Below, piece by piece: positions 15,105 through 31,255 of a stretch of 64,000 bases of DNA; within the stretch, counting starts at the first letter, position 1, and each line of letters opens with the position of its first letter. The stretch is from Tabrizicola soli (GTDB taxonomy: Bacteria > Pseudomonadota > Alphaproteobacteria > Rhodobacterales > Rhodobacteraceae): positions 1 through 64,000 of the forward strand of contig NZ_JAEACP010000001.1 of assembly GCF_015999335.1 (NCBI RefSeq), given 5' to 3'. The position numbers and the translations under genes are program-made. The notes under the pieces were generated by a model that was not told the DNA's origin, made no database searches, and was given only the letters and a program-made list of their open reading frames with translations.

Positions 15105-15188
15105 ATGGCCATGGATATTGGCAAGGCGGGCTTGACCCGTCCGACGCATCGCTGCGCGACAGGCCCTTGCCGGCCCGAACCCAGATGA
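15105..15188 (+). CDS. 27-codon leader ORF upstream of the TMA operon
   Basis: The best ribosome-binding site in the region (AGGGAGGAG) precedes ATG 15105, which opens a 27-codon frame ending in TGA at 15186-15188. That stop overlaps the ATG (15185) of the next gene, which has no site of its own, so translational coupling is likely. The peptide is basic with two Cys and resembles nothing I recognise. Alternatively a frameshift has split one longer gene. Confidence 0.45.
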   Translation: MAMDIGKAGLTRPTHRCATGPCRPEPR

Positions 15189-15847
15189 AAGCGCATCAAG
15201 CCTGCCGCGCCCCTGCCGGACGGTGCCCCGCATCGGCGATCCCCATCCTGCGCGCACTGGTGCCGGCATCCGATGCCGAGCTTGCCGCGGCCCGTGCGGC
15301 GGGCTGGAGGGGCTGCGACCTTGGCTGGGAGCGGTTGCAGGAACGGGCGGAGTCCGCGCTGCACGCCGGGAACGGCGCCGGTGCGACCGGGCTGTGGCGC
15401 CATGGCTGGTGGCTGGCGAGGCTGCGCTTTTCCACCGACGATCCCCGCTATGCCACCAGCCTTGCCAATGCCGGAATGGCCGCGCGGCTGACCGGGAACG
15501 AGCCGCTGGCGCGGTTGCGCTATGCCCGCGCGCTTCGGCTCTGGGGCGCGGTGCCGGACTGGGTCGAGCGTATGGACATCGCACGGCGCGCCCGCAGCTC
15601 CACGTTCCACCTCCGGTTGGAGGCCACCTACTGGGAAGACTACAAGGCCAGCATCCGGCGCCGGGCGATGGACTTCGCGCGCGAAGCCGCGGCCTGTCTC
15701 GACGCCGGGGCCCACGGCACACCCGTGACCTTCCGGCTGCACGAACGCTGGCGTGGCGAGAGGCCGGCGGCTTTCGACGATCTGCGCAAGTTCCTGGGCG
15801 CGGCGCTTCTGCTTGCCGCCCCACAGTCGCCCGACATGACCAATTGA
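15185..15847 (+). CDS. Uncharacterised alpha-helical (TPR-like) protein of the TMA operon
   Basis: A 220-residue protein. The middle has a helical repeat-like look (residues about 50-120: NGAGATGLWRHGWWLARLRF, YATSLANAGMAARLTGNEPLARLRYARAL), suggestive of tetratricopeptide-type helices. No catalytic motif, signal peptide or membrane segment is evident. The ATG at 15185 overlaps the stop of the leader ORF; an upstream in-frame TTG at 15167 is the alternative. It ends 42 bp before trimethylamine dehydrogenase, so an accessory role with that enzyme is likely, but its function is unknown. Confidence 0.65.
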   Translation: MKAHQACRAPAGRCPASAIPILRALVPASDAELAAARAAGWRGCDLGWERLQERAESALHAGNGAGATGLWRHGWWLARLRFSTDDPRYATSLANAGMAARLTGNEPLARLRYARALRLWGAVPDWVERMDIARRARSSTFHLRLEATYWEDYKASIRRRAMDFAREAAACLDAGAHGTPVTFRLHERWRGERPAAFDDLRKFLGAALLLAAPQSPDMTN

Positions 15848-15889
15848 CACGACGCGCCGCCGGATGCGGCAACCGAGGGAGAGTAAGAG

Positions 15890-28239: not shown

Positions 28240-30021
28240 ATGACGTCAGCAACAACTGAAGTTAGCCGCACGGAGAGTGGCCAGATGGTCCGTGCGCTCA
28301 GCTGGAAGGGGGCCTTCTGGGTCGCCGCCGGCGTGCCGCCGCTGGTCCTTTTCTCGATCGGCGGGATTGCGGGGACCACGGGGAAGCTGGCCTTTCTGGT
28401 CTGGATGATCTCGATGGTCATGGGTTTCCTGCAAAGCTTCACCTATGCCGAGATGGCGGGGATGTTCGGCAACAAGTCGGGCGGGACCTCGGTCTATGGC
28501 GCCACCGCCTGGCTGCGCTACAGCAAGCTGATCGCGCCCTTGTCGGTCTGGTGCAACTGGTTCGCCTGGTCGCCGGTGCTGTCGCTCGGCTGCGCCATCG
28601 CGGCGGGCTATATCCTGAATGCGCTCTTTCCGATTCCGCTGGCCGACAGCCAGCCGGTGCTGGACTGGGTGACGGCGAACCTGGCCAGCTACACGGCCGA
28701 AACGCCCAGCGTGGTGCAGTATCTGGCCGACAACGCCGGGACCACGGCGGAACAGGCCATCCAGGCCGTCGCCTCGGCTGACGGCGTTGCCGCGCAGACC
28801 CCGTGGTTTCGCGTCTTCGAGGCCTTCCAACTGACCATCCCGGGCCTTGGCACGCTGCACTTCAACTCCACCTTCATCATCGGCGTGGCGCTGATGCTGA
28901 TCATCCTGGTGATCCAGGAACAGGGCGTCGCCCAGACCGCCAGTGCGCAGAAATGGCTGGCGATCATCGTGCTGGTCCCGCTTCTGCTGGTTGGCCTGGT
29001 GCCGATCCTGACCGGCGCCATCGACACGATGAACGTGACCAACCTGCTGCCGCCCACCGCCGCCTATTCCGGCGAGGACGGCGCCTGGAACATCGGCGGG
29101 TGGACGCTGTTCCTGGGCGGGCTGTATATCGCGGCCTGGTCGACCTACGGCTTCGAGACCGCGGTCTGCTACACCCGCGAGCTGAAGGACCCGCGGCGCG
29201 ATACCTTCCGCGCGATCTTCTACTCGGGCCTCCTGTGCTGCATCTTCTTCTTCCTGATCCCCTTCTCGTTCCAGGGTGTTCTCGGGCACGAGGGAATGCT
29301 GGCCGACGGGATCGTGGACGGCACCGGCATCGCCGAGGCGCTTGGCGGCCTGATCGGCGGCGGGCCGGTGATCACCCAGATCTTCGTCATCCTGATGATC
29401 CTGGCGCTGTTCCTGGCGATCATGACCGCCATGGCCGGTTCTTCGCGCACGCTCTACCAGGGCTCGCGCGACGGCTGGCTGCCGAAGTATCTGGGCGAGG
29501 TGAACAGCCACGGCGCACCGCACAAGGCGATGTGGACGGATGTGGCCTTCAACATCTTCCTGCTGGCGCTGGCCTCGGACGCGGGAGGGTATTTCTACGT
29601 CCTCGCGATCTCGAACGTCGGCTACATCATGTTCAACTTCCTGAACCTGAACGCCGGCTGGATCCACCGCTTCGACTCGGCCCATATGGATCGCCCGTGG
29701 AAGGCGCCCACCTGGCTGATCGGGCTGAACACCTGCCTGGCCTTCGTCAACGCCCTGTTCCTGGGCGCGGGCGCCAAGGTTTGGGGTTACGAGAACGCGC
29801 TGTGGTCGGGGCTGATCTTCGCCTCGTTCATCTTTCCGGTGTTCTGGTATCGGCACTATTTCGTCGATGGCGGCAAGTTCCCCAAGGAAGCCTATGAGGA
29901 CCTTGGCCTTCCTTATGGCGAGTTGGGGGAAAGGAAGGCCGGCATCCTGCCCTATGTGGCGCTGGTCGCCGGAGCCTGCGTCGTCCTCTGGGCGAACTGG
30001 TTCTTCGTCCTGCCGGGCTGA
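28240..30021 (+). CDS. APC-superfamily permease of the methylamine cluster
   Basis: A 593-residue inner-membrane transporter with about 12-14 hydrophobic segments. The N-terminal APC signature region is GVPPLVLFSIGGIAGTTGKL, and the first core helices are AEMAGMFGNKSGGTSVYGATAWLRYSK and WCNWFAWSPVLSLGCAIAAGYILNA. It is larger than typical 450-residue amino acid permeases, with an extended loop (about residues 130-200). It sits between etfA and a second GcvT-like gene, so uptake of an N-methylated amine or betaine-like precursor is likely; exact substrate unknown. Confidence 0.8.
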   Translation: MTSATTEVSRTESGQMVRALSWKGAFWVAAGVPPLVLFSIGGIAGTTGKLAFLVWMISMVMGFLQSFTYAEMAGMFGNKSGGTSVYGATAWLRYSKLIAPLSVWCNWFAWSPVLSLGCAIAAGYILNALFPIPLADSQPVLDWVTANLASYTAETPSVVQYLADNAGTTAEQAIQAVASADGVAAQTPWFRVFEAFQLTIPGLGTLHFNSTFIIGVALMLIILVIQEQGVAQTASAQKWLAIIVLVPLLLVGLVPILTGAIDTMNVTNLLPPTAAYSGEDGAWNIGGWTLFLGGLYIAAWSTYGFETAVCYTRELKDPRRDTFRAIFYSGLLCCIFFFLIPFSFQGVLGHEGMLADGIVDGTGIAEALGGLIGGGPVITQIFVILMILALFLAIMTAMAGSSRTLYQGSRDGWLPKYLGEVNSHGAPHKAMWTDVAFNIFLLALASDAGGYFYVLAISNVGYIMFNFLNLNAGWIHRFDSAHMDRPWKAPTWLIGLNTCLAFVNALFLGAGAKVWGYENALWSGLIFASFIFPVFWYRHYFVDGGKFPKEAYEDLGLPYGELGERKAGILPYVALVAGACVVLWANWFFVLPG

Positions 30022-30115
30022 TTTCGCACCTTGGAAAAAGCTTCCGGGCGGTCCTTCTGGGCTGCCCGTAGCGCCTGAATGACGAAGAAACGACATATCC
30101 TGCGAAGGAGGGAAC

Positions 30116-31255
30116 ATGACCAATTCCTGGAGATTCACGGCGCTTGGCGACCGTCACCGCGCGCTCGGCTCGGGGCTTGAGGACTGGAACGGGATGGGCT
30201 TGGCCTGGTCCTATACCAGCGGCGATCCGGATGCCGAATACATGGCGATCCGCACCAGGGCGGGGCTGATGGATGTCTCGGGGCTGAAGAAGCTCCACAT
30301 CACCGGCCCGGCAGCCAGCCATATCATCGAGCGGGCCACCACCCGCAACCTGGAAAAGCTGATGCCCGGGCGCTCGGTCTATGCCTCGATGCTCGATGAT
30401 GGCGGCCGGTTCATCGACGACTGCGTGATCTACCGCAACGCGCCCAACCAGTTCATGGTGGTGCATGGCTCGGGGCAGGGGCACGAGCAGCTGACCATGG
30501 CCGCCACCGGGCGCGACGTCTCGATCCGCTTCGACGACAACCTGCACGACCTGTCGCTTCAGGGCCCGCTGGCGGTGGACTTCCTGGAAAAGCACGTCGA
30601 GGGCATCCGACAGCTGGCCTATTTCGGCCATATGCATACCGCGCTGTTCGGCCGGCCGGTGACCATCTCGCGCACCGGCTATACCGGCGAGCGCGGCTAT
30701 GAGATCTTCTGCCGCGGTCAGGACGCCGGAATGATCTGGGACCGGATCCTTGAGGAGGGCCAGGCGATGGGGATCATTCCCTGCCGGTTCTCGACGCTCG
30801 ACATGCTGCGGGTGGAAAGCCAGCTCCTGTTCTTTCCCTATGACAACTCGGAGGTCTATCCGTTCGAGAACGGTGACGCGGGTGACACGCTGTGGGAGCT
30901 CGGACTCGACTTCACGGTTTCCCCCGGCAAGACCGGCTTCCGCGGCGCCGAGGCGCATTACCGGCTGAAGGGCAATGAGCGGTTCAAGATCTGGGGCCTG
31001 AAGCTCGAGGGCGACAAGGTGCCGGGCAACGGCGCCCCGGTGATGCGCCGCGGCAGGAAGGTGGGCGTGGTGACGCAGGCCATGCACTCGCCGCTGAACC
31101 ACTGGACGGTGGCGATTGCCCGGCTGCCGCTCGATTGCGCCAACGACGGCACCGATCTGGTGGTGGCCTGCGACACCCATGGCGAGATCCGCGCCAGATC
31201 CCACTCGATGCCGTTCTACGACGTCGACAAGAAACGTCGCACCGCCAAGGGATAG
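30116..31255 (+). CDS. Free-standing GcvT-like folate-dependent protein (copy 2)
   Basis: A 379-residue paralogue of the GcvT-like protein at 25 kb, with the same hallmarks (SRTGYTGERGYEIF, LSLQGPLAVDFLEKH, FSTLDMLRVESQLLFFPYD, and the conserved end MPFYDVDKKRR). A good ribosome-binding site (GCGAAGGAGGGAAC) precedes the ATG. Having two such proteins in a cluster with two demethylating dehydrogenases suggests that each may serve one dehydrogenase or that they act on different one-carbon donors. Last gene before the tRNA-Asn boundary. Confidence 0.82.
   Translation: MTNSWRFTALGDRHRALGSGLEDWNGMGLAWSYTSGDPDAEYMAIRTRAGLMDVSGLKKLHITGPAASHIIERATTRNLEKLMPGRSVYASMLDDGGRFIDDCVIYRNAPNQFMVVHGSGQGHEQLTMAATGRDVSIRFDDNLHDLSLQGPLAVDFLEKHVEGIRQLAYFGHMHTALFGRPVTISRTGYTGERGYEIFCRGQDAGMIWDRILEEGQAMGIIPCRFSTLDMLRVESQLLFFPYDNSEVYPFENGDAGDTLWELGLDFTVSPGKTGFRGAEAHYRLKGNERFKIWGLKLEGDKVPGNGAPVMRRGRKVGVVTQAMHSPLNHWTVAIARLPLDCANDGTDLVVACDTHGEIRARSHSMPFYDVDKKRRTAKG

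Follow-up and report, generated by a model that had tools for sequence, protein, structure and literature searches.

Gene content of the amine locus

The window analysed here is a stretch of 64,000 nucleotides from Tabrizicola soli, part of a 4.68 Mb genome in 57 contigs with its closest named loci in the Rhodobacterales, and it contains a gene cluster predicted to oxidize trimethylamine (TMA) and dimethylamine (DMA). Ten open frames were called between 15185 and 31255, all on the + strand, and all ten products listed in an earlier note made from the letters of the sequence were recovered (two dehydrogenases, a pair of electron-transfer flavoprotein (ETF) subunits, a DgcB/EtfD-like protein, two GcvT-like proteins, an APC permease, an LRV protein and a TPR-like protein). 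The end given there for the module, 31255, is correct, while the most likely start of the first gene is 15185 instead of 15105. A clear family match was found for nine of the ten genes, the exception being the TPR-like gene, with no Pfam match at E 0.001, and nine of the ten frames pass a third-position GC coding filter, which the LRV frame fails. Likely starts were revised by inspection for GcvT1 (25051) and EtfB (26296). The features are as follows.

15185..15847, +, small TPR-like protein of 220 aa, conserved upstream of TMADH in some of the relatives
15890..18085, +, trimethylamine dehydrogenase (TMADH), from its PDB match to 1djn and its residues
18186..20348, +, DgcB/EtfD-type membrane Fe-S protein, probable ETF:quinone oxidoreductase, from its match to 9ojn and ligand conservation
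20345..21739, +, LRV (HEAT-like) solenoid protein, from PF01816 and a solenoid model
21740..22545, no strand, gap of 806 bases between genes, non-coding and AT-richer (GC 0.56 at 22000-22999), where the promoter of the DMADH unit may lie
22546..24759, +, dimethylamine dehydrogenase (DMADH), from its match to 1djn and its residues
25051..26148, +, GcvT1, GcvT-like protein of a DMADH-linked clade (PF01571, 230.9 bits; tree)
26296..27081, +, EtfB of the Methylophilus TMADH-partner type, from its match to 1o94_C
27085..28038, +, EtfA of the same type, from its match to 3clu_D/1o94_D
28240..30021, +, APC permease of the trimethylamine N-oxide (TMAO) permease (TmoP) family, from NF053774, with a paralogue on contig C18 of the same genome
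30116..31255, +, GcvT2, DmmD-like folate protein, from its paralogue in the C18 island and the tree

Residues 4-731 of the TMADH product align without gaps to residues 2-729 of Methylophilus TMADH (1djn; 1306 bits), and the DMADH product matches the same protein over its full length (1107 bits). Based on positions mapped by alignment onto 1djn, TMADH retains C30, Y60, S74, W105, Y169, H172, W264, D267 and W355 along with the 4Fe-4S cysteines, and DMADH has Q60/T74/F105 with the remaining checked active-site residues unchanged. We take Q60/T74/F105 to be the triple that separates DMADH from TMADH, and the TMADH residues presumably comprise Cys30 with a flavin mononucleotide (FMN) domain of the old yellow enzyme type, a bowl of Y60/W264/W355, and the Y169/H172/D267 set. 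The triple occurs in 9/9 DMADH copies (the window, seven further rows and L061, with L017 and L018 near-identical), and the TMADH set in all 12 other close TMADH rows, in three of three further rows of the alignments and in two more distant relatives, L019 and G064. Fold and residues agree in assigning TMADH, for which demethylation of TMA with ETF as acceptor is predicted.

The conserved TMADH-DgcB-LRV-EtfBA core

A related-locus search returned 14 loci, eight of which (L011-L018) hold a TMADH of at least 80% identity, and a plasmid collection yielded 47 records with a TMADH match, seven of them at 60% or more (five at 71-74%, two at 89%). With the window, these make a set of 16 records with a close TMADH, or 14 after near-identical records are merged (L017 and L018, 99.95% identical; two Paracoccus aminovorans strains, 99.3%), and neighbours were scored as present or absent within the sequenced stretch examined around each TMADH. 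TMADH is followed by DgcB and then LRV in 16/16 records, an order beyond chance, and EtfB-EtfA directly follow LRV in all but the window, where DMADH and GcvT1 lie between. The wider neighbourhood is more variable, with a GcvT-like gene near TMADH in 14 of the 16, an APC permease in 10 and the TPR-like gene in eight. DMADH is near TMADH in the window, L011, L012 and L014-L018, with none in the stretch examined for L013, and in P. aminovorans it is on the TMADH plasmid about 103 kb (JCM 7685) or about 424 kb (BM109) away. The five betaproteobacterial records all carry TMADH-DgcB-LRV-EtfBA, and a second place with TMADH or DMADH was not found in them at E 1e-170.

The co-occurrence across genomes that the earlier note had proposed as a check was also found among 295 genomes of the family, in which TMADH at 80% identity or more occurred in three and LRV (E <= 1e-15) in the same three; the family and record tallies overlap, because two of these three genomes are L012 and L015. 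LRV was detected in one of 385 class genomes (E 1e-12) and close TMADH in one of 398 phylum genomes (E 1e-200), in each case the window's own, in samples that were drawn separately and whose coverage is too thin to include Methylophilus or Hyphomicrobium. A plasmid search for LRV at E 1e-20 gave six records, five with a close TMADH and one a Deinococcus repeat protein without amine genes, and it failed to pick up two Paraburkholderia records with an LRV protein of 35% identity, so the absence of LRV at a given threshold is weak evidence. Because these genes travel together as a block, their co-occurrence does not by itself prove a joint function. Taken together, these comparisons indicate that TMADH, DMADH, a dedicated ETF, a DgcB-type acceptor and a GcvT-like protein are a real unit with a conserved TMADH-DgcB-LRV-EtfBA core. 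The gene set with LRV was not described in the literature covered (titles and abstract openings, with subscription journals largely outside coverage).

The LRV protein exceeds the Pfam cut-off for PF01816 (93.6 bits against 21.6) and has a predicted solenoid model (pLDDT 89). Its start overlaps the DgcB stop (ATGA) with no evident ribosome site of its own, and relatives at 35-67% identity are present in the 15 other records, with the L013 frame having no ATG, GTG or TTG at or before the aligned start. The Azotobacter LRV protein (1lrv) shares the repeats and a comparable fold, and its gene context differs; it presumably bears an N-terminal cysteine cluster for a 4Fe-4S center, and clustered cysteines of this Azotobacter type were not found in the N-terminal part of the window protein. 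As a separate observation, large proteins with LRV-like repeats lie among uncharacterised genes on a Deinococcus plasmid (L040:502-9219). The TPR-like protein has 49-65% identity to relatives in five loci (L011, L012, L013, L017 and L018, the last two near-identical), a TPR_12 match below the Pfam cut-off (E 0.0014 in the window, 2.7e-5 in L017) and an AlphaFold model of low confidence (pLDDT 56).

Electron chain, putative docking dialects and a probable second route

The ETF subunits are of the Methylophilus TMADH-partner type and resemble the ETF of the TMADH complex structure far more than any other solved ETF, with EtfB scoring 311.8 bits to 1o94_C compared to 138.3 for the next match, 1efp_B, and EtfA about 360 bits to 3clu_D and 1o94_D compared to 122.6 for 1efv_A. 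The TMADH-ETF pair of Methylophilus W3A1 (1djn, 1o94) has in common with the window the full-length match, the active-site set, Tyr442 and the ETF beta loop PRYASLRGIKQA, the latter two being what we take to be docking elements of the Methylophilus complex. Compared to that pair, the window links genes for a membrane acceptor, LRV, DMADH and a folate protein. A second point of comparison is the dimethylglycine gene set of Pseudomonas, which we take to be DgcA/DgcB with an ETF-like pair: a TMADH-like demethylase, DgcB and an ETF pair are common to both, as is the absence of the D1 cysteines, while the substrate differs and, to our knowledge, LRV and DMADH are absent there.

The 720-residue DgcB-type protein has a sole PDB sequence match at E 0.001, the 1042-residue iron-sulfur reductase 9ojn (244.6 bits), probably the mycobacterial EtfD described in PMC13083937. 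Across 16 aligned homologues, including the window, all keep the eight ferredoxin-type cysteines of two 4Fe-4S motifs, four histidines, Cys590/625/626/665 (the C-terminal CCG cysteines) and the DPH histidine; Cys668 is a cysteine in only nine, and the four D1 cysteine positions are held by other residues in all 16 (D, T or N, D, T or S). The D2 ligand cysteines are assigned by alignment, and histidines are the candidate heme ligands. PMC13083937 describes DgcB and FadF as without D1 cysteines, suggests that ETF hands electrons directly to D2, and discusses DgcB of dimethylglycine catabolism as a membrane Fe-S acceptor for ETF and an N-demethylating flavoenzyme. Because the D1 cysteines are absent as stated there for DgcB and FadF, the membrane acceptor is of the DgcB kind and not new, its type of electron chain being known from dimethylglycine catabolism; the earlier note, which knew of no description of the combination, is corrected on the membrane Fe-S acceptor with ETF, which that source already holds in kind. 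The new elements are the LRV partner and two putative ETF-docking dialects.

These dialects separate the TMADH relatives along two positions and a loop. In the LRV class, TMADH has Tyr or Phe442 and Thr or Val344 (P. aminovorans has Phe442 in both TMADH and DMADH), and the ETF beta loop is PRYASLRGIKQA in all eight loci examined. Outside this class, Arg442 and Glu344 occur in 9/9 rows of TMADH relatives (including G064 and Shinella PSBB067), and the loop is PRYATMRMIK in the four other loci (L062, L020, L021 and L056). The pattern suggests two ETF-docking dialects, one accompanied by LRV, and a single deep split between clades could explain it. On this pattern, the docking residues of Methylophilus would lead one to expect LRV near its TMADH gene. 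A general tie of LRV to DgcB was considered but is not supported, as DgcB-EtfBA adjoins TMADH relatives of 48-59% identity without LRV in the stretches examined for L020, L021, L022, L056, L062 and L068; of the relatives at 48-50% identity, L020, L022, L056 and L068 have the order TMADH-like-DgcB-EtfBA, and L021 has the same genes with wider spacing. One of these, L056:10269-16567 on contig C29 of the same genome, is a third cluster in which a TMADH-like gene (F60, T169, D172, F355) precedes DgcB, EtfB and EtfA, with a sigma-54 activator, an APC permease and an aldehyde dehydrogenase as neighbours, and its substrate is perhaps another methylated amine. On contig C2, L057:9053-11128 encodes a 39% TMADH-family enzyme (unusual residues aligned to the bowl: E74, A105, C267, D355) that adjoins polyamine-type ABC transporter genes.

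The last two genes of the module point to a different part of the genome. The permease, an APC permease in the earlier note, scores 811.5 bits against the TMAO permease model NF053774 (cut-off 690). The permease and GcvT2 form one contiguous 3.0 kb stretch that is 82.4% identical to the pair on contig C18 (87% and 82% at the amino acid level, respectively) and was evidently copied from the Tmm/Tdm island or to it. GcvT2 matches TMAO demethylase 9q5a over residues 409-784 (179 bits) and is sister to the C18 paralogue in the tree (support 100/100, with long branches near GcvT2), while GcvT1 falls with the copies found on the DMADH side in L011 and L012 (99/98), outside the TMADH-side clade; the 'twin folate proteins' of the earlier note are thus a DMADH-linked copy and a relative of an island DmmD-like protein. 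The C18 paralogue is named DmmD because of its neighbours, DmmA-like and HODM-like genes, which are not beside the window copy. According to PMC4543880, DmmD of P. aminophilus plays an auxiliary role and may make methylene-folate. Compared to the Tmm-Tdm-Dmm methylotrophy island treated in PMC4543880, with its TmoP and DmmD, the window permease and GcvT2 closely match their counterparts in the C18 island and differ in standing behind dehydrogenases, not a DMA monooxygenase.

Contig C18 (L058, L059) carries GmaS-like, glutamate-synthase-like and sarcosine-oxidase-like genes, Tmm, the permease, the GcvT paralogue, DmmA-like and HODM-like genes, and Tdm. Tdm is over its cut-off (1214.7 bits), as is the type III glutamine synthetase read as GmaS (626.5 bits, a cut-off also exceeded in one of 14 control genomes), and Tmm scores 574.4 bits for the 337 C-terminal residues seen, under the 675 cut-off as cut. 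Family searches located the Tmm, Tdm and DMA monooxygenase genes on C18 and found none among the ten genes of the module. The monooxygenase route for TMA consumes oxygen and reductant. Because genes for oxygen-dependent use of TMA and for methylamine lie on C18, the genome appears equipped with two routes for TMA, one oxygen-dependent. Nor is the module self-contained, contrary to the earlier note, since the genes for methylamine disposal and folate one-carbon metabolism lie on other contigs. Double equipment for TMA is not unique to this genome, as P. aminovorans records include Tdm on a different plasmid, judged by accession series, and PMC8399692 reports tmm and dmd-tmd annotations side by side in some sediment Methylophilus genomes.

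Proposed mechanism, alternatives and surroundings

The locus is read as one for oxygen-independent oxidation of TMA and DMA with an ETF-DgcB chain, an LRV scaffold or assembly factor and a duplicated permease/DmmD-like pair, to which we assign a probability of about 0.85. Gene content, order, residues, conservation and the duplication are observed, and from these we infer every catalytic step, the docking, the quinone acceptor, the formaldehyde capture and the LRV role. The locus very probably strips two methyl groups from TMA and passes the electrons into respiration. TMADH would remove one methyl of TMA as formaldehyde and DMADH one methyl of DMA, leaving methylamine for the N-methylglutamate pathway encoded on C18. 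Electrons from either dehydrogenase would pass through its own 4Fe-4S cluster to the dedicated EtfAB, docked around position 442, and the DgcB-type protein would oxidize ETF (noncubane D2 cluster, two cubanes, heme) and reduce quinone, such that two electron pairs per TMA could be returned to the quinone pool alongside a route that spends oxygen. GcvT1 may bind tetrahydrofolate and capture formaldehyde as methylene-folate, with little free formaldehyde expected, and the permease and DmmD-like GcvT2, as duplicates of a pair from the oxygen-dependent Tmm/Tdm/Dmm route, may serve TMAO uptake and DMA-derived formaldehyde. The LRV solenoid would be a scaffold or assembly factor at the ETF/DgcB end.

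Several observations weigh against parts of this reading. The loci G064 and L062 (TMADH 58-59%, with the full TMADH residue set) have the order TPR-TMADH-DgcB-EtfB-EtfA-GcvT with no LRV, so LRV is dispensable for TMADH chemistry as such, and L019, which keeps the residue set, has only relatives of GcvT and of the solute-binding protein (SBP) in the stretch examined. The window has no member of the TMADH-side GcvT clade, and GcvT is absent near TMADH in the stretches examined for L017 and L018. The permease model is one for TMAO, not TMA, and the functional roles attached to the TMADH residue numbers are presumed ones, their positions being mapped on 1djn.

It is possible, though doubtful, that LRV helps to mature the Fe-S cluster or flavin of TMADH and DMADH, each with a 4Fe-4S cluster and covalent FMN, rather than being part of electron-transfer assembly; however, its start overlaps the stop of DgcB, not that of TMADH, and no LRV was found in the stretches examined around the 58-59% TMADHs of L019 and G064, both of which retain the cysteines for cluster and FMN. 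More tentative still, and probably not correct as it stands, is the specific proposal that LRV is a dedicated organiser of the TMADH-ETF-DgcB chain in the dialect of Tyr/Phe442, Thr/Val344 and PRYASLRGIKQA, keeping ETF in place between both dehydrogenases and the membrane acceptor. We know of no LRV protein with a respiratory role, and if this proposal is true it would be the first, in a cell with two routes for the same amine, only one of which depends on oxygen.

The locus could alternatively serve mainly TMAO and DMA, with the permease importing TMAO, Tdm elsewhere cutting it to DMA, DMADH at work and TMADH secondary. The permease score over the TMAO-permease cut-off, the presence of Tdm in the genome and the DMADH-GcvT-permease run of L011 and L012, a unit divergent from the TMADH unit, fit this account, but an intact TMADH is present and its unit is conserved more broadly, standing in all five betaproteobacterial records, where no second TMADH/DMADH was found at E 1e-170; the account is considered unlikely. 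That both flavoenzymes have other N-methyl substrates, as may be true of more distant relatives, is very improbable: TMADH-family proteins are common (83 of the 295 family genomes at E 1e-100, including the three with close TMADH, most at 39-49% identity), but those distant relatives that were examined have a different bowl (e.g., T169/D172/F355), while the window pair keeps the TMADH and DMADH sets.

Under the preferred reading of oxygen-independent TMA and DMA oxidation, the locus would be a gene-linked answer to what oxidizes the ETF of TMADH and would place an unstudied solenoid protein in the TMADH electron chain. Genomes with two separate TMA routes, one needing oxygen, make the choice of route and the role of LRV testable.

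Upstream of the module, 12540-14764 holds genes for a periplasmic binding protein and, in convergent orientation, a GntR/FCD regulator, a possible sensor and regulator of the module, and the same pair adjoins TMADH in L011, L012, L013, L017, L018, L036, L067 and L062. Downstream is a tRNA-Asn gene (31682-31756) with its 3' end toward the module. A genomic island at this tRNA was considered and integration was not demonstrated, the tRNA end being single in the window with no 14-mer in common with the remainder; in a genome of the same genus (G191) the tRNA flank is kept at 75% identity, with no TMADH above 40%. Farther along, genes for PreA, an omega-aminotransferase and a dihydropyrimidinase at 43549-52106 probably form an ordinary cluster for pyrimidine degradation.

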